From contig JAPWUD010000001.1 of assembly GCA_028275705.1 (NCBI GenBank), positions 62,001 to 126,000 of the forward strand: a DNA stretch of 64,000 nucleotides, in the 5' to 3' direction. Under the pieces are notes generated by a model that saw nothing but the letters and a program-made list of their open reading frames with translations, made no database searches and was not told where the DNA came from. Numbering within the stretch: the first letter of the stretch is position 1; every line of letters begins with the position of its first letter. Shown piece after piece: positions 26,016-35,503 of this stretch. The translations under genes and the position numbers were made by a program. Source of the DNA: Desulfurococcaceae archaeon. GTDB lineage: Archaea > Thermoproteota > Thermoprotei_A > Sulfolobales > Desulfurococcaceae.

Positions 26016-26582
26016 TTGATTCAATGCCGCGAACTCTTGGATTCCACTCTAGCAGTAGAGAGGCTTAGCCTGGATCCAGTGGAGGTTTTCAGCACACTCC
26101 TCGCCTTACTTAGTGAGGGTATTGGACGAGTTGCATTGTCTAAGAAACTTGGTTTCCCCGAGAGAACTGTGAGAAAAGTGGTTACTCTAGTTAAGACTGG
26201 AGAGCTCTCGTGGCTAAGAGGGGTTTTCAAAGAGATCTCGGTGACTAGTATTAATGCCCCATGGCTCAATTGTCAACCAGTACTCTACGAGGGGTTTAAT
26301 AGTGGATTATTGGATACTGTGAGAGAGAATATTGTCTTACTCAGAGACTTCATTGTCATATCTAGTAGAGAGCCTGGTAAAGTAGAAGTTATCGGTGTTC
26401 TCATAGGAGACAACCTAGTCTACCCGGGGCTTGTAGAGGAGTATAGTGAGCCTTACTTAAAACTTAGAGAACTCCTACCGAGAACTAGTGGACTACTCGT
26501 ATGCTGGAGGAGTTATAGAAGGTACCTCGACGACTCTATACTCATTGCCTCACTAGCTTACCTCTGTAAGCACTCTGATTGA
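26016..26582 (+). CDS. Helix-turn-helix regulator next to an ABC importer
   Basis: About 188 aa. Residues 15-65 form a predicted winged-helix (VEVFSTLLALLSEGIGRVAL, then GFPERTVRKVVTLVKTGEL). The rest is an alpha/beta domain of unknown type (VEVIGVLIGDNLVYPGL) with two cysteines in its last quarter, possibly a ligand sensor. A TTG at 26016 lies behind GTGGTG. Its 3' end overlaps the convergent importer ATPase gene by 41 bases, so it is the natural candidate regulator of that importer, but no direct evidence shows this. Confidence 0.6.
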   Translation: MIQCRELLDSTLAVERLSLDPVEVFSTLLALLSEGIGRVALSKKLGFPERTVRKVVTLVKTGELSWLRGVFKEISVTSINAPWLNCQPVLYEGFNSGLLDTVRENIVLLRDFIVISSREPGKVEVIGVLIGDNLVYPGLVEEYSEPYLKLRELLPRTSGLLVCWRSYRRYLDDSILIASLAYLCKHSD

Positions 26583-27336
26583 GTGGTATGAGGACTCTTA
26601 ATCCACCAATAGAGATACTTGTAAAGGATACATTGTAAACCCTCTCCAATACACTAGTGTCTCTAAGTAATTCATCGTGAAATCCCGTGAAGACTACTCG
26701 ACCCCGTGATAATACTACATAGTAGTCGCACGTCATCGAGGCGAATAACGGGTCGTGTGTAGAGAGAACAATTGTTACACGACTAGAGATCTCCCTGAGG
26801 AAGCTAGACAGCCAGGTCTTCGAGTAGACGTCTAGGTGGCCGTCCGGCTCATCTAGTAATAGCACCTTTGGATCTTTCACAAGCGCCGCTGCGAGTACAA
26901 CTCTCTGTAATTCACCAGCACTGAGTTCACCAAGCCTCCTATTCGCTAGATCACTTAATCCAAGCATCTCACACACCTCGCTAACCCTCCTAAGATCCTC
27001 CTCGCTCGTAAAGAACCCCCTTGAAGCAGGGTATCTAGAGTAGACGAGTACATCTAGTACTGTGATACCGAGTAGATCTAGCTCCTCGAGTGTTGAAGAG
27101 TATGATAGCATTCTCCTAAGTTCACTAATAATACCCCTAGCATCTCTACCATTAACCTCGACTACGCCATCATAGCTGATTAACTGCGCTATGGCTTTAA
27201 GTAGCGTTGTCTTACCAGACGCATTGGGGCCTAGAATGCACGTGACTTTGTTACTAGGTATATCTATACTCACATCTCTAAGTGCTACTACACCACTACG
27301 CTTATACCTGACACTGAGACTCTTAATAGAGATCAA
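26542..27336 (-). CDS. ABC importer ATPase, cobalamin/iron-siderophore type
   Basis: 264 aa with Walker A GPNASGKTT (about 36-44), signature LSAGELQRV, Walker B VLLLDEP and the H-loop STHD. It matches the FecE/BtuD class that powers type II importers. The gene is the last of a three-gene minus-strand operon with 4-base overlaps: binding protein, permease, ATPase. Substrate (cobamide, haem or ferric chelate) cannot be told from sequence. Confidence 0.93.
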   Translation of the reverse strand: MISIKSLSVRYKRSGVVALRDVSIDIPSNKVTCILGPNASGKTTLLKAIAQLISYDGVVEVNGRDARGIISELRRMLSYSSTLEELDLLGITVLDVLVYSRYPASRGFFTSEEDLRRVSEVCEMLGLSDLANRRLGELSAGELQRVVLAAALVKDPKVLLLDEPDGHLDVYSKTWLSSFLREISSRVTIVLSTHDPLFASMTCDYYVVLSRGRVVFTGFHDELLRDTSVLERVYNVSFTSISIGGLRVLIPLNQSAYRGKLVRQ

Positions 27337-28292
27337 GTGAAGCCACCCCGAAACCTCCTAACAAGGAGCACTAGGAAGAATGGCGCTCCAATAGCAGATA
27401 TAACTGCTCCAGCTGGAACTTCACCCACAACTCTAGCCACTAGAGACCTAGATAGAGTATCCGTGGTGAATAATAGTAGTGAGCCGAGAGCCATGGCCAG
27501 GGGTATTACTAGTCTATTATCACTAGTCTTCAGTAAAAACCTAGCAGTGTGTGGAGTCACGAGACCGAGGAATCCAATAACTCCAAACTGCGAGACAATA
27601 ATGCTAGCGCTCACACCGGCAATTATAGAGGATAGTAGCCTCGTTAAGCCGGGATCGACTCCGAGTTGGGCAGCGTGATCGTCTCCAAGCATGATAACGT
27701 TGAGTCTCTTCGCCAAGACAACGTAGCCGAGAACTACTAGTATCGCTGCTAGTAGCGTGTATGGTAGGTTCTCGAGACGTGACTGTATAAATGTACCCGT
27801 TAACATTAGTGATGCATAGCCATACCTCGAGGAGACGTAGTAGAGTAGGAGCACTGAGAGACCTGAGAATAAGCTTGTAACACCAATACCTGAGAGTACA
27901 TAGGCGATGTCGCTTCCAGATATACTCTCAGCGATGAGGATCGTCACTGCTAGTGCAGAGAGACCCCCAATAGCTGCTGCTAAACTAATAATCCATAGAG
28001 TAACATGATCTAACACTAGTAATGTAGCGTAGACAGCGAATAATGCACCAGACCCCGTGCCGAGGATATAGTGGTCCACTAGTGGATTCCTCAGTGAAGC
28101 CTGCAGTATACATCCAGATGTTGCGAGGACGGTGCCGGCTAGTATCGTGTATAGTGCTCTATAGAGTCTATACATGACTATTCTCCCCGGTAACCCCTCG
28201 TTGAGGGTAACTATGTAGGTGTAGAGTATGGGTAGTGTAGTCGAGGCTAGTAGTATTGAAAAAACAAGGAGTAGTCTTAACTTACTATTCAA
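27333..28292 (-). CDS. ABC importer permease, FecCD/BtuC family
   Basis: 319 aa with about ten membrane helices. Conserved FecCD features: YRLYRALYTILAGTVLATSG, LRNPLVDHYILGTGSGA and the C-terminal GFLGLVTPHTARFL coupling segment. It forms the channel with the adjacent ATPase. TTG start after GGAGGAGAGG. Confidence 0.93.
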   Translation of the reverse strand: MNSKLRLLLVFSILLASTTLPILYTYIVTLNEGLPGRIVMYRLYRALYTILAGTVLATSGCILQASLRNPLVDHYILGTGSGALFAVYATLLVLDHVTLWIISLAAAIGGLSALAVTILIAESISGSDIAYVLSGIGVTSLFSGLSVLLLYYVSSRYGYASLMLTGTFIQSRLENLPYTLLAAILVVLGYVVLAKRLNVIMLGDDHAAQLGVDPGLTRLLSSIIAGVSASIIVSQFGVIGFLGLVTPHTARFLLKTSDNRLVIPLAMALGSLLLFTTDTLSRSLVARVVGEVPAGAVISAIGAPFFLVLLVRRFRGGFT

Positions 28293-29404
28293 GAACCTCT
28301 CCTCCGGGAGCCAATATATAGCCCGGTAAAGAACACTACTATGGCTACAACTATTGTTATTGCTACCGCTTGATTTATCTCCATAGCCCCCGCCATCCCT
28401 CCCTGTGTAGTGATCGTAGTGGTCTCGGTCTCCTTTACAGTTACAGTAGTTGCCTGTGGCGTAGTCACAGTCGGCGTCTCCACGGGTTTACCCAGTCTAC
28501 GCTCGAGTGCTGCGTAGAGTACTTGCGGTACTAGTTGTATTAGTGGCCCCGGCCTCGAGATAATGTCTACTTCTGTACTATTCAGTAATACTATGGGTTT
28601 ACCTAGATCGTATAGACCAGCCTCTCTAATGGTCTCGTTGGTTGCATATGAGCAGGCCACTATAATGAGGTCTGGACTCCACTTAGACACGGTCTCCACG
28701 CTCACTGCACTCCACCCATATGTAGTAGCTGCGTTGACTAGCCCAAGTCTTGAGAGTACATCATCTATGAATGTCGCTCTACCTGCGACCCATATACCCT
28801 GCCAGAAGTCCAGTACTACTAGTATTCTCCTACCACTATATGGCCTCAGTATTTTAAAACCCTCGTTTAACCCACTAGTAATTCTACCTATGAGTTCCTC
28901 AGCCCTACTAGTTTCATTGAATACTAATCCAATAGTGTATATATCGCTGAGGACCTCGTTGACACTCCTAGCTGAACCACCATGAATATACACTACTGTC
29001 ACATTGTAGGATTCAAGAGTCTCCAGTAGTGGCTTGTGCGCACCACTATCAGCCAATACAACATCGGGGTTTAGCCCCAGGATCTCCTCCACCCTAATAG
29101 CACTCCACCAGTAGCCACCAACATCAACTATACCCATCTCTCTAAGTCTACCACTAGTATTCAAATACCAATCACTCATTGAGAAACTATCAACACCAAC
29201 AACTCTATCAAGTAAATCGAGTTCAGCGAGAACCTCTGTAATAGATGGAGCCATTGAAACCACACGCCTAGGAACACCAGGCAACTCAACGTGCCTACCA
29301 AGAACATCCTCGACAACAATAGACTGCTCAGCCGTAGTCAACACACTTAAAGCAACTAGCAACAACAGTAGTGTAGGTATCCACCTATGAATCCGCTTGG
29401 ACAT
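28289..29404 (-). CDS. Membrane-anchored substrate-binding protein of the ABC importer
   Basis: 371 aa: signal segment WIPTLLLLLVALSVLTTA, a BtuF/FhuD-like binding domain (PRRVVSMAPSITEVLAELDL through about residue 310), a Thr-rich linker (TVTTPQATTVTVKETETT) and a C-terminal membrane helix with an RRR tail. Archaeal binding proteins are commonly anchored in this way. ATG at 29404 is chosen over 29506 because it gives a normal signal peptide. A perfect palindrome covers this start. Confidence 0.9.
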   Translation of the reverse strand: MSKRIHRWIPTLLLLLVALSVLTTAEQSIVVEDVLGRHVELPGVPRRVVSMAPSITEVLAELDLLDRVVGVDSFSMSDWYLNTSGRLREMGIVDVGGYWWSAIRVEEILGLNPDVVLADSGAHKPLLETLESYNVTVVYIHGGSARSVNEVLSDIYTIGLVFNETSRAEELIGRITSGLNEGFKILRPYSGRRILVVLDFWQGIWVAGRATFIDDVLSRLGLVNAATTYGWSAVSVETVSKWSPDLIIVACSYATNETIREAGLYDLGKPIVLLNSTEVDIISRPGPLIQLVPQVLYAALERRLGKPVETPTVTTPQATTVTVKETETTTITTQGGMAGAMEINQAVAITIVVAIVVFFTGLYIGSRRRGS

Positions 29405-29413
29405 ATTGTCCAA
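29397..29413. promoter_or_regulatory. Palindromic operator at the importer start
   Basis: TTGGACATATTGTCCAA is a perfect 7-3-7 inverted repeat with the importer operon start codon at its centre. A TTTAAG box sits about 20 bases upstream on the minus strand, so the site overlaps the predicted transcription start. A dimeric repressor bound here would block the promoter; the factor is unknown. Confidence 0.6.
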
Positions 29414-29750
29414 CACCCTTAAAGAGTATATTAGTGAGGGGCTAATATACCCAGACCATTGTAGATCAAGATCTAATATATAGCAATCCACAAGCAAACA
29501 GCACATTGAAGTAATTTACAAATAGCCATGTTCTTCCTAGTCCTTGACCTAGGCAATGACTTCATGGTTCCACCGCGAAACCGTGTTCCACACTGGAACT
29601 ATTCGGATAGTTTATGCATCGCTATGGATTAATCCATGGAGATATTACTGGTTTACCAGGGCTTCGTGGTTTTACATTTAAACTTGTTGTTTATTAGGTT
29701 TATTACCTCGTACATCGTATTAGGATGGTTTTGCACTTGGTGGTTTATAG

Positions 29751-30320
29751 ATGCTTACTCGGAGTAAGGTTTTAGTGGTTGTATTGCTTCTAGTGGCTTT
29801 AGTTATTCTACTATACTTATTTAACCCATGGGTTTACGCATATAAACCAGAATTTGCCTTCTACATAGACGTCTCCACGGGTAGACCCATTGTAGTCGGG
29901 GTAGTAGAGTGTATTGGCTTTACTCCATATTCAACGGGTGTATTGGGAGTCCGCATTATCCCAGGGGATTTTGTTTGCTATAGTGGGAGGGGTGAGAGTG
30001 TCTTCGACTCTTTGAGGATCTATATTAATGCATCAATAGGATACTGGGTTTATAGTGATGTAGCGTTATTCTACGCTAATACAACTAGTGTTAAGTACGT
30101 TGATGTAATAGTTGAGAAGCCACTGAATATGACTGGGCTAGAGGTAATACTGAGGGATAGGAGTGGAAATACTGTCCTAGTAGTAGACGCTACAAAATAT
30201 AATAAATACGAGTTAAGCCTACCCCAGGGGGAGTCTGTGTACAGGGTTACAATAGTATTAAATAGTGACAAGCCAACTAGAGGGGTATTCCGCATAGGAT
30301 TCTACATTAAAAACACATAG
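29751..30320 (+). CDS. Secreted beta-rich protein, possible fibre subunit 1
   Basis: 189 aa: an uncleaved or cleaved N-terminal helix (VLVVVLLLVALVILLYLF), then a wholly beta-rich exported domain with N-glycosylation sequons. The C-terminal half (LRIYINASIGYWVYSDVALF, VDVIVEKPLNMTGLEVIL) aligns by eye with the next protein, so the two are paralogs. This fold pattern is compatible with TasA/AbpA/cannula-type subunits, which is inference. ATG after a GGTGG site. First gene of the surface locus; the 244-base gap before it holds only a 14-base palindrome at 29624-29637. Confidence 0.65.
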   Translation: MLTRSKVLVVVLLLVALVILLYLFNPWVYAYKPEFAFYIDVSTGRPIVVGVVECIGFTPYSTGVLGVRIIPGDFVCYSGRGESVFDSLRIYINASIGYWVYSDVALFYANTTSVKYVDVIVEKPLNMTGLEVILRDRSGNTVLVVDATKYNKYELSLPQGESVYRVTIVLNSDKPTRGVFRIGFYIKNT

Positions 30321-30434
30321 TTAAACAAGTGAAGTCTACACCAAGGTATTCAATAGAGACGAGACTATAAAGTTTAAAAAGGGTTTATGATTGATAAAAG
30401 CTAAGCAAGAGGTATATGGAAAAAGGTGGGTGGA

Positions 30435-31091
30435 GTGGATAGAAGACTACTAGTACTAATAGTAGCAGCAGTAGCCCTCACAGGAGTAGTAAACGCAACA
30501 GCATTTGCATACAGGTGGATGACAGGCAACATAACAATATCTGACGCAAGTAGTGCAAGGGGTATAGCGTGCACAGGATTCTACGCTGCAGATAACCGCG
30601 ATCCAATCATGCCAAATGTAGGTACAAACTACAACGCACAAACATATGGAGGAAACACTATATCAGTAACACACGGCAATGCCGTCTGCCAGTGGACTGA
30701 TAGCGGAGGGAATACGAGGTACCTATATGAGAGTATCAAGGTAGATATTCCTGTAACTGTTGGATCCTGGTATATAAAGGACTTCTACGGCTTCGGCTAC
30801 CACGGCTTAAGTGAAGATCCATCAACAGTATATGTAACATTTAAACTAGAGCAACCCGTGAATGATACTACAGCGATAAGCAATGCATACTTGATAATAA
30901 AGTCCTCTGATGGCTCCACCGAGATCGGGAGATTAGACTTGGTGTCGGGTACTACCATAGGCCCATACTCGCTGAGTCGTAATAGTTCTTGGAGACTAGA
31001 TCTAAGATTTAATGCAACTAGTACTAGTACTGGCCCAGTATCGTTCACGGTAGGAGTGTACGTATCGCTAAGTAGCACTGAGTCTCCATAG
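30435..31091 (+). CDS. Secreted beta-rich protein, possible fibre subunit 2
   Basis: About 218 aa: signal peptide (LLVLIVAAVALTGVVNATAF), then AYRWMTGNITISDASS and a beta-sandwich-like domain ending in Ser/Thr-rich strands (FTVGVYVSLSSTESP). N-terminal xxYRWxxxNITIS recurs in the 33032 protein (YTQRWSYFTVNIS). The look resembles bundling-pilus or cannula subunits that polymerise by donor-strand exchange, but no diagnostic residue proves this. GTG at 30435 follows GGTGGG; frame opens at 30426. Likely the abundant subunit because it has its own TATA-like box (GTTTAAAAAG). Confidence 0.65.
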   Translation: MDRRLLVLIVAAVALTGVVNATAFAYRWMTGNITISDASSARGIACTGFYAADNRDPIMPNVGTNYNAQTYGGNTISVTHGNAVCQWTDSGGNTRYLYESIKVDIPVTVGSWYIKDFYGFGYHGLSEDPSTVYVTFKLEQPVNDTTAISNAYLIIKSSDGSTEIGRLDLVSGTTIGPYSLSRNSSWRLDLRFNATSTSTGPVSFTVGVYVSLSSTESP

Positions 31092-31112
31092 CGTGGTTAA
31101 AAGGTGGCGGGA

Positions 31113-32293
31113 GTGACTTATAACCCAAAAAGTTTTTTTCTCGTAGTCGCTTCCTCGGTGTCCTAGCTTATATTGGTTTATTCTTGTTCTTTGTGTTGTT
31201 TACTGGTAAGGCTTTCTACTCTCCTGTAGCATTTATTATTTCTACTAGTGGTAACCACGTTGTATCCCAGTGGAGTCTTGTTGTTGGATTAGCTGACTAC
31301 GTGGTTAAGCCGGGTAATCAGAGCAGTGTGTTGGTTTGCCGTGTTGAGGCTTGGAGTACTCCTTGCTTTATGGGCTTGTATGTACTTAATGGTAACGGGG
31401 TTAATGGAGGCTCTGTGTTAGTGGGGAATGGTAATGGGTTGACTCGTGTCGGGCTTAATGGCGACCATGTGAGGCTTTATGGTGTAGTAGCTAGTTTCCC
31501 TATTTATATTTGGCTCCCGCTCCTCACACTATACTTCGCTCTAATAGCATACATTCTCTTAAGAGAGGTTGAGAGGGGCTATGTACACCCACTTAGGGAC
31601 CCCCGTGTTCTCGGTGTAGCAATTCTAATAGCGATATCTATTAATAGCGTTCTTGTCGGGGCTCTATATGTTGACCAAGCTACTCCAAGGTATAGTCTAC
31701 CAGGCATTAGCGTTGAGTGGGGCTTTAACCTAGAGAATAGCACTGTATCCGCTAAGCTACTTCTCAGTGGTTTCTACATACTCCAGAGTGCTACGTGTAG
31801 TTACAGCCCGATCGGGGCTAATACTAGCTACCCACTCGAGACTATTATTGTGAGCGGGGACACTGTGATAGCTACTATACCTAGTACTATATATGGGCAA
31901 GTATATAAGTCTAGAGTACTCGAGCCGATACCCCCAATTCCAGCTAATTTATCAGTCTACGAGGCTATACCAGTTAAGTGTAGGTTTACACTTGATAAAG
32001 GGGTTTTTGAGGCTTCATACCTAGCTGTCTTCTACTGGAGGGACCTCGTAGTACTCGTCGTGGATTCCAGTGTACTAGTTAGTAATCCAAACCCCGTTGG
32101 AGTCAACGCTAGTATCTACATCGTGGATCTTAAGCGGGGTCGCTTACTGAACTCTACGAGTGTGTTTGTTAAGCCATTGTCTAGTGTGTGGATCGACCTA
32201 GGCTTGTATGGTGCTGGAGTCTATAGAGTGATTGTACAGTATAATTTACTAGGCTTGGTGAGAACTCGTGTCGTGGAGACTGTGGTTTCGTAG
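31113..32293 (+). CDS. Surface protein with internal membrane helices; frameshift at a T7 run
   Basis: The main frame opens only after a TAA and has no start codon before TTG 31184, in the middle of a hydrophobic helix. A well-placed start exists upstream in another phase: GTG 31113 behind AAGGTGG, reading VTYNPKSFF up to a run of seven T (31133-31139). One slipped T joins it to SRSRFLGVLAYIGLFLFFVL, a perfect N-terminal anchor. After that come an ectodomain, two membrane helices (about 120-145 and 165-185) and a second beta-rich ectodomain. Function unknown; possibly the assembly or anchor protein of the fibre locus. Confidence 0.6.
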
Positions 32294-33035
32294 GAGGAGG
32301 GTTAAGCCTCTACAAGAGCTTGTCTCAGAGGAGATTGCGTGGTATTGGTGGACTAGGCTTGGGTTTATTGGTAAACTATACTTATTAATCTCCAGTATAG
32401 TGTCAATATCATCCTCACTACTCACAGTCTACATACTATTCCAGCCGCTAGTAGTCTATGATGGATACACACTTAGTGGATACATATCCCCACTAAGCTA
32501 CAGCCTCAGAGTAGCTGGATACCCAGCTAAATACCCATTTCTCGATAGCCTAGTCTCAATATCTATCTTCATGTTGGCTTACGCAGCGGTCACAGGGATA
32601 CTCGGTGCTCTAGGAGTCATTGGAGTAGCCAAGGAGTGGAGGTCTTGGGTTGCATTTGCACCATCCTCGACTGCGTCAGCCTCACTACTAGTATCACTAC
32701 TATACTCACTACTACGCTTTGCTTCACTAGACGCTATACCATCAATACCATACACAGTGACAATAACAAGCACTGGTGGAGGCAGAGTCTACTTAAACTC
32801 ACCTAGAGCAACATACAATTGGACATACTACCTACCATGGAGGCCAATATACTTCTTCACAGCATTCAACATACTAATAGCATTCACAGCTGGCTCAATA
32901 ATACTCCTACTACTAAAGCCAAAAACACCAGTAACACGCGCTAGAATTAGAAGGAAGAGTGAGGTGAGCAGCTTAAACCCATTGTTGAATAAATTAAGGG
33001 GCTTATTTACTAAAAGTAGAGGTGGCAGTGTGTGA
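32268..33035 (+). CDS. Polytopic membrane protein of the surface locus
   Basis: 255 aa with four predicted membrane helices (LYLLISSIVSISSSLLTVYI, FMLAYAAVTGILGALGVIGV, a Ser/Leu-rich helix and FNILIAFTAGSIILLLL), an external loop with beta strands, and a basic C-terminal tail. Both ends probably face the cytoplasm. It overlaps the upstream gene by 26 bases and the next by 4, so the three are one translational unit. No family recognised. Confidence 0.7.
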   Translation: MSWRLWFRRRRVKPLQELVSEEIAWYWWTRLGFIGKLYLLISSIVSISSSLLTVYILFQPLVVYDGYTLSGYISPLSYSLRVAGYPAKYPFLDSLVSISIFMLAYAAVTGILGALGVIGVAKEWRSWVAFAPSSTASASLLVSLLYSLLRFASLDAIPSIPYTVTITSTGGGRVYLNSPRATYNWTYYLPWRPIYFFTAFNILIAFTAGSIILLLLKPKTPVTRARIRRKSEVSSLNPLLNKLRGLFTKSRGGSV

Positions 33036-34498
33036 CTCGACGAGCATTCATCGCAGTAATAGTCTTGCTCCTAGTAGCAAGCATTGCCTACGCTACAATA
33101 TATACGCAGAGATGGAGTTACTTCACAGTTAATATTTCACAACCCCACGTGTGGTTTGAAGACCCCCAGTACCCAAACGTAGTGGTAGAGCTATCCAACT
33201 ACAAGACAAGCGCAATAGTGAATATTCCGGCTGGGAATATGGGTGTAAGGCTAGTTAATAGAACTGGGCTAGTTTATAACCTCACTCAAGGCTATGACTA
33301 CGTCTCACAGTACTTTGAGCAATACGGTCAAAAAAACTGCAATTTCTCTTACACAAGTGACGGTAGCGTTATAGTGGCAACCGGCAACCCAAGTGGTGGA
33401 CTATACGGTGGCTGCACACTAAGATACAAATACCCCCCAGGTGTAATCGCCAACATCTCGTTCACAGCACTCATGAAGACTGATGACACAAATGAACAAG
33501 GCATTAGAGGAGTGTCTCTCTGGAATAGCACAAGTGGATACTACTACTTAGCTGGAATAAAAAACAATGCTACAGGGCAGTGGTTTTTCGGAATATATAA
33601 GTACACGGGGACAACTACAAGGGAGCCGGGAGGCCCCGTAATACCGGCACTAGTAGATACTGCAATAACTGGTGGTGTAACTAGTGCTTGGTTTAGTGTA
33701 TCTTTTCAGCAGATCATATACCCCAATGGCACGGTAGTTCTCAAAGCATGGCTCTACAATATTACGGGTGGAGGTGGATTAGTAGCCTACTTGGAGAAAG
33801 TTGACTCCTCACCTATATATGCCGATAACTTTGGATTAACAGTATATCAAATCGTTAATAAACCATCTGCTGTTTTCCAAATCGTTGGTTTTACGACTGA
33901 GACCCGTGTACTCATTGTTAAGGGTTTACCCTACTGTTGCTATGTCTATATTTACGACTCCTCCGGTGGTCTCATTGGATCCGGCCATGTAAATGAATCC
34001 GGTATTGTTGAAATCCCACTTGTGAATCCAAGTGTAATTAACGCGACTATTAGTGTTTCCTGCAGTGGGTATACATACAATTATACGCAGAGCATACTAC
34101 TAGGTGGAGACGTCTTTGAAGTATACTTTTGGTTTGAAGGACCAGCGCTCATGGTCTACACAGATATATTAGGCATGAACTTCACTGGCTGGTTAAGACT
34201 ATACAATGCTTCTTGTAATGGCTCAATATACAGTATTAAAGTATGGTTGGTTAATCAGACTGCCATCAGTAGTAGTATAAATATTACTCAAGTAGATAGC
34301 GGCCTCCTAGTATACCCCGATGAAACCAGCTTAATAATACTCACTCCACAGTCCACAGGCTGGGCTGGCAATGTAACTCTAAGGGCAGAACTTTACTATA
34401 ACACTTACTGCACACTGTACACATACTTCTACTATAACTACTCAATAGGCGCGTTCAGTTGGCTAGACGCCACAATGAACATTAAGGGGGGTCCGTGA
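33032..34498 (+). CDS. Large secreted multidomain surface protein
   Basis: 488 aa: signal peptide (AFIAVIVLLLVASIAYATIY), a first domain rich in strands and glycosylation sequons with a LamG/concanavalin-like feel (residues about 95-290, GVSLWNSTSGYYYLAGIKNN), then two Ig-like beta domains with a CC pair (GLPYCCYVYIYDSSGG). Possibly an adhesin or minor fibre component. GTG start after GAGGTG. Last gene of the locus; function inferred from position only. Confidence 0.7.
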   Translation: MTRRAFIAVIVLLLVASIAYATIYTQRWSYFTVNISQPHVWFEDPQYPNVVVELSNYKTSAIVNIPAGNMGVRLVNRTGLVYNLTQGYDYVSQYFEQYGQKNCNFSYTSDGSVIVATGNPSGGLYGGCTLRYKYPPGVIANISFTALMKTDDTNEQGIRGVSLWNSTSGYYYLAGIKNNATGQWFFGIYKYTGTTTREPGGPVIPALVDTAITGGVTSAWFSVSFQQIIYPNGTVVLKAWLYNITGGGGLVAYLEKVDSSPIYADNFGLTVYQIVNKPSAVFQIVGFTTETRVLIVKGLPYCCYVYIYDSSGGLIGSGHVNESGIVEIPLVNPSVINATISVSCSGYTYNYTQSILLGGDVFEVYFWFEGPALMVYTDILGMNFTGWLRLYNASCNGSIYSIKVWLVNQTAISSSINITQVDSGLLVYPDETSLIILTPQSTGWAGNVTLRAELYYNTYCTLYTYFYYNYSIGAFSWLDATMNIKGGP

Positions 34499-34678: not shown

Positions 34679-35143
34679 CTACAGGTCAAGAGGCATTATG
34701 AAGACGTCACTCCTGAGATTTCTACTTTTGATGAAGGTTTTGAGTGATTCATCTATCGTCAAGAACTTTACATCTTCTTGTGTAATAGTGATGCTATATA
34801 GTATATTGTCTATTAAGTCTCTGTGGCCAAGTACATAGAGTTTTATTGCCTCCTTTACCGCCTCTTCAGTGATTTCTGCTCTGTTTAAGTCTCTTCTAAT
34901 TGCTCTAATTCCGTTAGCTACGGCTTCCACTATATTATTTCTGTTGTAATCCTGTCCACTACTTAGTTCACGTATTTTCTTTGTTATCTTCCACAGTGCC
35001 TCTAAAATACTTAGTTCACTATAGTATACCTCATGCTCTTTTAATTTTTCTATACAATTCATTACTACCTCGTCTGTTTTAAATCCTATAAAAGGCAATA
35101 GAAATGAGGTATCAAGTAGAATTTTGTAGTTTTTCTTGTTCAC
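34679..35143 (-). CDS. PIN-domain toxin, VapC type
   Basis: About 154 aa: the first strand KILLDTSFLLPFIG carries the first PIN aspartate, SELSILEALWKI the conserved Glu, and GHRDLIDNILYS plus FLTIDESL the remaining acidic residues. PIN proteins cut RNA; with the AbrB-like partner encoded just upstream and overlapping it forms a VapBC toxin-antitoxin pair. GTG at 35143 with GAGGAGAG before it is preferred over 35161. Confidence 0.82.
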   Translation of the reverse strand: MNKKNYKILLDTSFLLPFIGFKTDEVVMNCIEKLKEHEVYYSELSILEALWKITKKIRELSSGQDYNRNNIVEAVANGIRAIRRDLNRAEITEEAVKEAIKLYVLGHRDLIDNILYSITITQEDVKFLTIDESLKTFIKSRNLRSDVFIMPLDL

Positions 35144-35357
35144 GCTCACTCTCCTCTTCAAGCTCTTTAAAACTTATATATCCTACTTTAGGACCATATA
35201 GTGCATACCAGAACGCATCTCTAACTGGTTCAATAACTATTCTATCGCCCTCAATGTACATCCTGAGCTTCATCCCCTCTCTTATACCCATTTTATCTGC
35301 AATAGCCTTAGGTAATGAAACCAGTCTCTTCTTAGACACTTTAACTTCAAAACTCAT
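35112..35357 (-). CDS. AbrB-type antitoxin, VapB
   Basis: About 81 aa: SpoVT/AbrB swapped-hairpin N terminus (VSKKRLVSLPKAIADKMGIR, GDRIVIEPV) and a charged C-terminal helix that would embrace the toxin. It overlaps the toxin gene by 32 bases, typical for VapBC. ATG 35357 or GTG 35369 may be the start. Confidence 0.82.
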   Translation of the reverse strand: MSFEVKVSKKRLVSLPKAIADKMGIREGMKLRMYIEGDRIVIEPVRDAFWYALYGPKVGYISFKELEEESEREQEKLQNST

Positions 35358-35503
35358 CGTAGTAGACACTACCCCACCCCGCTAATATTCTCACCATATG
35401 GGCTTTTAAACTTAGTTCTCTACAATGGGCTTAAACCAGGATATGTCTAGGTTCACTTCAATAATCTTAGTTATTAAAGAATACTTATTGTTCTCCATGG
35501 GCT

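Follow-up and report, generated by a model that had tools for sequence, protein, structure and literature searches.

A five-gene archaeal locus that probably encodes a donor-strand-type pilus of the thread/AbpA superfamily

Introduction

What do five genes for secreted β-proteins and membrane proteins, packed in one direction, build together, and does the product have known relatives? A sequence-only reading of the 64-kb stretch of DNA analysed here, the whole of which we call the window, had taken this locus for a possible new fibre or sheath system. The evidence below indicates that the locus probably encodes an extracellular pilus of the donor-strand type, within the superfamily of archaeal threads and AbpA, and that novelty is to be sought in its accessory genes.

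Results

The locus comprises five conserved genes

All five ORFs were found on the + strand where they had originally been placed within the window:

ORF1, 29751 to 30320, + strand: secreted β-subunit of 189 aa, a paralog of ORF2; putative minor subunit
ORF2, 30426 to 31091, + strand: pilin-like secreted β-subunit of 221 aa; putative major subunit
ORF3, 31113 to 32293, + strand: signal peptidase I-like domain, two further TM helices and a C-terminal β ectodomain
ORF4, 32268 to 33035, + strand: multi-TM membrane protein of 255 aa with 3–4 helices
ORF5, 33032 to 34498, + strand: large secreted glycoprotein of 488 aa with a subunit-type signal/tail motif

ORF3 and ORF4 overlap by 26 nt, and ORF4 and ORF5 by 4 nt. 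Pairwise comparisons between the window and sister genomes gave dN/dS values of 0.16–0.47, indicative of purifying selection, and the gene set was found again in many genomes; these results together argue that the ORFs are genuine genes. The genes are conserved and run in one direction, with ORF3 and ORF4 as the two membrane proteins that had been proposed.

The small subunits are probably related to thread and AbpA pilins

ORF1 and ORF2 had been described as paralogous secreted subunits, and comparison of their family profiles bore this out (hhalign 98.7%, E = 4e-16 over 176 columns). ORF2 consists of a signal peptide, an N-terminal tail containing a putative donor strand (about residues 27–45) and a jelly-roll head. 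Its AlphaFold2 (AF2) model (pLDDT 75, pTM 0.71) has low confidence at residues 23–45, as would be expected of a donor strand modelled in a monomer. When the model was searched with Foldseek, the best near-full-length match was the AbpA pilus subunit (PDB 7UEG; E = 4.4e-4, probability 1.00, TM-scores 0.46/0.55), and the predicted structure combines a TasA/AbpA-type jelly-roll head with an N-terminal tail. An enzyme or solute-binding fold, the outcome that would have spoken against a fibre, was ruled out for ORF2 by the Foldseek matches of the predicted model.

Many of the partial Foldseek matches were to carbohydrate-binding modules and other jelly rolls, and ORF5 orthologs at loci L038 and L039 bear DUF2341. 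Both observations would suit secreted or S-layer-associated glycoproteins or lectins that do not polymerise, with ORF1, ORF2 and ORF5 sitting on ORF3/ORF4 and binding sugars or surfaces. We consider this unlikely, however, as the carbohydrate-binding-type matches have low coverage and TMq values of 0.35 or below versus 0.46/0.55 for AbpA, the sequence profiles favour filament subunits, and the N-terminal tail motif is conserved (TAFAYRW in ORF2, ASVFVYYP in relatives).

Single-sequence searches with the window ORF2 gave no match in the PDB or Pfam, AbpA included, so the link to threads and AbpA runs through profiles; likewise, phmmer, Pfam and NCBIfam searches with the window proteins returned chance-level matches only. 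A subunit profile built without the window (A6) matched the thread subunit (PDB 7PNB/8RZL; E = 1.5e-8) over nearly its full length, and also matched the window ORF2 (E = 1.3e-9). The alignment of the ORF1/ORF2 family (A1) matched the thread-family alignment (hhalign 98%, E = 2.6e-13), also when restricted to ORF2-type sequences (E = 2.8e-6). A related subfamily on a neighbouring branch (A13) matched both AbpA 7UEG (E = 3.7e-8) and A1 (E = 5e-13). For ORF1 on its own, the comparison with the thread family gave no match (P = 0.08). As the subunits are connected to threads by profile and to AbpA by profile and fold, they most likely represent, judging from these comparisons, a new branch within the superfamily of donor-strand pili that includes threads and AbpA, rather than a fibre without homologs.

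Other pilus types were less consistent with the data. Of the proposed analogy to TasA, AbpA and cannulae, the TasA/AbpA-like fibre logic held by fold and family, whereas cannulae found no support in sequence or fold. A CanA-type tube or sheath, in place of a beads-on-a-string pilus, would fit β-rich secreted subunits in hyperthermophilic Thermoproteota, and the locus occurs in genomes of family f8. CanA was nevertheless missing from the profile matches in the PDB and from the 50 best Foldseek matches of ORF2, and the closest profile kin are thin pili, which makes a cannula very improbable. No Pfam match to the TasA/camelysin family was found among the window ORFs or their relatives, and no Pfam or NCBIfam pilin match indicative of type IV pilins or archaellins among the window ORFs. 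Unlike in pilins with class III signal peptides, the hydrophobic helix of the subunits lies before an AxA-type site, leaving a mature tail without a helix.

The ORF2 head is hypervariable between close relatives

Comparison with the sister genome G118 revealed a region of strong divergence:

ORF2 hypervariable head, 30501 to 31090, + strand: 41–75% nucleotide identity to G118

Coding windows around ORF2 are mostly about 90–99% identical to G118, and in sister genome comparisons dS was 0.57–1.07 for ORF2 versus 0.09–0.18 in the adjoining ORFs. Similarly, the two loci of genome G085 are 93–94% identical in their machinery and 44% identical in their subunits. Two other genome pairs showed no such hypervariability, and a family-wide signature of it found no support there. 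Carriage of the subunits by viruses was rejected, as no relatives were found among viral contigs.

A conserved accessory module accompanies the subunits

The locus had been thought to have no recognised homolog set. Contrary to this, a synteny search recovered many loci across the Thermoproteota with a module made up of a long ORF3 that fuses a signal peptidase to an ectodomain, an ORF4 with ~4 TM helices and a large secreted ORF5. Using ORF4 as the marker of the module, we inspected 39 ORF4 genes and found a long ORF3 within 3 kb of 36; for 33, a subunit gene on the same strand lies no more than 9 kb away. ORF1 is present in some loci only. In several genomes ORF4 is fused to an ORF5-like protein, and these fusions keep an internal signal-like stretch and an A/SVFVYNP-type motif, so that the predicted cleavage site adjoins the dedicated peptidase.

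ORF5 shares the N-terminal motif of the subunits, as had been noticed from the sequence (69 columns, E = 3.7e-6). Its proposed glycosylation is supported by 19 N-X-S/T sequons, where shuffled sequences would give 5.2 (p < 0.0005). In ORF1, ORF2 and ORF4 no significant excess was seen. The AF2 model of ORF5, made from a two-row alignment, was unusable (mean pLDDT 37.5). We regard ORF5 as a putative terminal adhesin. A partial literature search found no description of the accessory module, and it is this part, ORF3/ORF4/ORF5, that looks new. The description of the system as undescribed is therefore fair for the module and too strong for the filament, whose subunits match threads and AbpA by fold and family.

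ORF3 is a signal peptidase relative that has lost its catalytic residues

Through its orthologs, ORF3 could be recognised as a relative of signal peptidase I (TIGR02228, E = 1.2e-17 in relatives), with alignment of the Ser/His/Asp positions. The relatives score better against the archaeal signal peptidase model (1e-17) than against SipW (4e-5). Family members of 340–410 aa combine the peptidase with a second membrane-anchored β domain, and the catalytic Ser/His/Asp are intact in 33/39 relatives, within the motifs SGxSMxP..HRV..KGD. In the window ORF3 the catalytic columns read N/G/N/R, and Ser/His/Asp are lost across its clade. A housekeeping signal peptidase (G000:C4:2308-2760) has an intact active site. 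Genome G003 encodes the ORF3 ectodomain without the peptidase domain, and L173 alone matched the ectodomain profile (193 columns, P = 3.3e-8). Two features of ORF3 are relevant here:

T_TTT_TTT heptamer, 31133 to 31139, + strand: putative site of −1 frameshifting or of transcriptional slippage, at the 5' end of ORF3
ORF3 C-terminal ectodomain, 31664 to 32293 (approximate limits), + strand

The open frame of ORF3 truncates the first TM helix and has no usable start upstream. The probable start of ORF3 is GTG 31113, followed by a −1 shift in the T7 run; the alternative without a shift is TTG 31184. The T7 run is retained in L002 and L029, L030 has an in-frame T8, and from sequence ORF3 appears to be read through a −1 shift at this run in three genomes.

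Loss of the catalytic residues and a frame broken at T7 could also mean decay of the whole system in the window's clade, with ORF3 a pseudogene and the fibre no longer produced. This is very improbable, since the frame break is identical in three genomes, ORF3 residues are conserved upstream of the sole in-frame TTG, and dN/dS versus sister genomes is 0.16–0.26 for ORF3 and 0.22–0.41 for ORF1, ORF4 and ORF5. The dead peptidase domain by itself gave 0.16–0.24. ORF3 is thus still under purifying selection in this clade, and on these values we reject a simple pseudogene.

Discussion

In the donor-strand pilus that we favour, ORF1, ORF2 and ORF5 would be Sec substrates with class I signal peptides, cut just before the conserved aromatic tail (..VNA/TAFAYRW.. 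in the window, ..A/SVFVYYP.. in relatives), and the N-terminal strand freed in this way would be taken up by the next subunit's head. The main, surface-exposed and variable subunit would be ORF2, with ORF1 a possible minor initiating or capping subunit, and ORF5 a heavily N-glycosylated adhesin at the tip. A specific assignment of ORF1 as a Saci_0405-type cap received no support from sequence comparison. ORF3 and ORF4 may act as a membrane-bound unit for processing and for assembly or anchoring. The peptidase domain of ORF3 would be active in most relatives and probably cleave the substrates of its own locus; in the window's clade, it may be a pseudo-peptidase retained for binding and assembly, and as it is catalytically dead, cleavage would fall to the housekeeping signal peptidase.

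The thread papers report that the assembly pathway is unknown and the functions of neighbouring genes elusive (PMC9715654, PMC11607397), and ORF3 and ORF4 in the relatives may be the missing machinery. Tentatively, and with less than even confidence, we propose that they are the assembly machinery of archaeal donor-strand pili, in which a signal peptidase was turned into an assembly platform: still cutting in most lineages, stripped of catalysis with assembly kept in the window's clade, where it would be made via a programmed −1 frameshift, and with the peptidase domain shed in G003 and possibly in Sulfolobus threads.

The locus and its relatives bring threads and AbpA together in a single superfamily, and they supply a candidate processing and assembly unit that is widely conserved. 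Natural variants of ORF3 that are active, dead or missing the domain separate cleavage from assembly, and a variable ORF2 amid near-identical flanks suggests that an exposed fibre is under selection, with viruses or partners as examples of possible agents.

Comparison with known systems

The closest known system is the archaeal thread of Sulfolobus acidocaldarius, whose subunit is Saci_0406 (PDB 7PNB/8RZL; PMC9715654, PMC11607397). Its subunit is homologous over nearly the full length, and there too a class I signal peptide precedes an aromatic N-terminal strand. The thread cluster likewise encodes another small subunit, a large secreted protein and membrane proteins, and its partners 0405, 0407/0408 and 0409 resemble our locus in architecture. 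The thread family, however, retains ADVIYYY, where Asp24 and the YYY motif carry an intersubunit isopeptide bond; this motif is absent from the window subunits, which makes the locus superfamily kin and not a thread proper. The Sulfolobaceae/Vulcanisaeta-type thread clusters inspected encode a TM-ectodomain protein that, unlike ORF3, has no peptidase domain, and a 4-TM protein without demonstrable homology to ORF4. Comparisons of ORF3 and ORF4 with these cluster proteins were not significant (P = 0.001–0.09), a higher score for the 4-TM protein against ORF4 being circular, as both sets contained L173, and no long signal peptidase was found in the Vulcanisaeta family.

The AbpA bundling pilus of Pyrobaculum calidifontis resembles the locus in its subunit, by fold and, in sequence, via subfamily A13. 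The TasA-TapA-SipW system of Bacillus subtilis (PMC9674648) is comparable in operon logic, as it too groups a fibre subunit and a minor subunit with a type I signal peptidase of their own. ORF3 differs in lying closer to the archaeal signal peptidase model than to SipW, in bearing an additional ectodomain and in being accompanied by a multi-TM protein; in the window it is also catalytically dead. Archaeal-type signal peptidase I (TIGR02228/S26) shares its family and, in most relatives, its catalytic motifs with ORF3, which differs in its length, its second membrane-anchored β domain and the loss of those motifs in the window's clade.

A conserved five-gene locus

The sequence-only reading had claimed a five-gene locus on one strand, and we found all five genes as described:

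29751-30320, shared strand: ORF1, small secreted beta-subunit
30426-31091, shared strand: ORF2, small secreted beta-subunit and candidate major pilin-like subunit
to 32293, shared strand: ORF3, signal peptidase I-like domain with a C-terminal ectodomain
32268-33035, shared strand: ORF4, multi-TM protein
33032-34498, shared strand: ORF5, large secreted protein

ORF3 and ORF4 overlap by 26 nt, and ORF4 and ORF5 by 4 nt. The source is a 1.47-Mb draft genome (G000), with Desulfurococcaceae as its nearest named relatives, and codon comparison with sister genomes indicated that each of the five genes evolves under purifying selection (dN/dS 0.16-0.47). The divergent operon upstream (26542-29506) looks by sequence like a BtuFCD-type iron-siderophore or cobalamin ABC transporter, and the small gene pair downstream (34679-35369) like an AbrB-type/PIN (VapBC) toxin-antitoxin, whose PIN-like gene is also present in a sister genome (L029).

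The small subunits probably belong with archaeal threads and bundling pili

Searches with the single ORF sequences returned no match. ORF2 relatives were found in 20 of the order's 197 genomes, after which we aligned the small subunits encoded at syntenic loci. A profile built without the window's sequences (A6) matched both window ORF2 (E = 1.3e-9) and the thread subunit Saci_0406 of Sulfolobus acidocaldarius (7PNB, E = 1.5e-8; 8RZL, E = 3e-4). When the Sulfolobaceae/Vulcanisaeta thread family was compared with the ORF1/ORF2 family, profile against profile, the result agreed (98%, E = 2.6e-13; E = 2.8e-6 when restricted to ORF2-type sequences). A further subfamily retrieved with A6 (A13) matched the bundling pilin AbpA (7UEG, E = 3.7e-8) as well as the ORF1/ORF2 family (E = 5e-13), and ORF1 and ORF2 are themselves paralogous (98.7%, E = 4e-16).

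In the predicted structure of ORF2 (pLDDT 75, pTM 0.71), a beta-sandwich forms the head, and the tail before it, residues 23-45, has low confidence. AbpA was its top near-full-length PDB fold match (E = 4.4e-4, prob 1.00, TM 0.46/0.55, 201 columns); the remaining 49 matches listed, carbohydrate-binding modules among them, had lower coverage or TMq ≤0.35. The rmsd to AbpA is high, probably because the tail is placed differently in a monomer and in a fibre.

AbpA-like small subunits in other archaeal genomes (L203-L206, L212) lie beside a different 3-6 TM family (MPEFFxLLGIDxFLAxSLLTC..), possibly another pilus module.

The subunits travel with a membrane and secretion module

Neighbouring genes of the subunit across Thermoproteota encode a large secreted protein, a long protein resembling signal peptidases and a protein with several TM helices. 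Among 398 genomes sampled in the phylum, 41 carry ORF4-type genes; a long ORF3 lay within 3 kb of 36 of 39 ORF4 genes and a same-strand subunit within 9 kb of 33 of 39, the exceptions being mostly contig ends and one peptidase-less locus, L173. Since one locus set was retrieved via ORF2 and another (L109-L127) via ORF3/ORF4 matches, this linkage is not merely a sampling effect.

ORF5 is beta-rich, with a single N-terminal hydrophobic segment, an N-terminus similar to that of the small subunits and 19 sequons against 5.2 expected; two orthologs carry DUF2341. It is a putative adhesin. ORF4 is joined to an ORF5-like protein in several genomes (loci L165, L166, L167, L168, L178), and the junction, read in L165, L166 and L178, keeps an internal signal-like hydrophobic stretch and an A/SVFVYNP-like tail motif, as if cleavage would set the large protein free.

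ORF3 has lost its catalytic residues in the window's clade

The archaeal signal peptidase I model TIGR02228 matched 9 of 14 aligned ORF3 members (best 1.2e-17) and the SipW model 6 of 14 (best 4.1e-5); Pfam S26 matches were weaker. Of 39 long forms, 33 keep the catalytic Ser, His and Asp, a count that takes in L169, whose called start removes the serine; these residues are gone in the four window-clade members, L041 and L032. The best tree topology requires at most two losses, and a single loss is also compatible. Purifying selection still acts on the dead domain (dN/dS 0.16-0.24), and the housekeeping signal peptidase of G000 is intact. In genome G003 (L173, 829-1557), the ectodomain has no peptidase domain attached, and its neighbours are an ORF4 homolog and a subunit; judging from this arrangement, the peptidase part is dispensable there. 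Two loci have an extra short, motif-intact signal peptidase gene within or beside them (L039, 10581-11069; L040, 12528-12947).

The ORF3-coding frame has no ATG, GTG or TTG 5' of 31184, and the residues encoded there are conserved with relatives. Another frame opens at GTG 31113, preceded by a GGTGG-type sequence, and a -1 shift on T_TTT_TTT (31133-31139) joins the two. The shared T7 and -1 break in three genomes (window 31113-31190, L002, L029), with an unbroken frame at T8 in L030 (6930-7080), suggests a candidate programmed frameshift or transcriptional slippage.

The candidate major subunit is hypervariable in some comparisons

Against the relative G118, the ORF2 head (30501-31090) is 41-75% identical, versus 90-99% in most coding windows of ORF1, ORF3, ORF4 and ORF5; the dip recurs against L002, and dS is 0.57-1.07 for ORF2 versus 0.09-0.18 for its neighbours. 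Two module copies in G085 (L045 and L118) share 93-94% protein identity in ORF3/ORF4 and 44% in their subunits. Two other genome pairs showed no subunit hypervariability. Where the variability occurs, it is compatible with an exposed major subunit that recombines or is replaced, and a variable subunit amid near-identical flanks, as in the window against L029/L002 and in L045 against L118, resembles pilin or flagellin allele replacement.

Proposed assembly and comparison with known threads

In our best reading, ORF1, ORF2 and ORF5 would be exported by Sec and cleaved just before their aromatic tails; ORF2 would polymerise by donor-strand insertion, and ORF1 and ORF5 would serve as subunits that are minor or terminal. 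ORF3/ORF4 would form a membrane unit that carries out processing in most lineages and would only assemble or anchor in the window's clade. ORF2 polymerisation and the roles of the other four proteins are putative.

Published work on threads describes their assembly pathway as unknown and the accessory-gene functions as elusive (PMC9715654, PMC11607397). The Vulcanisaeta family has no long ORF3-type form. Sulfolobaceae and Vulcanisaeta-like thread clusters encode a TM-ectodomain and a 4-TM protein, for whose homology to ORF3 and ORF4 sequence comparisons gave no statistical support, in positions similar to those of ORF3 and ORF4.
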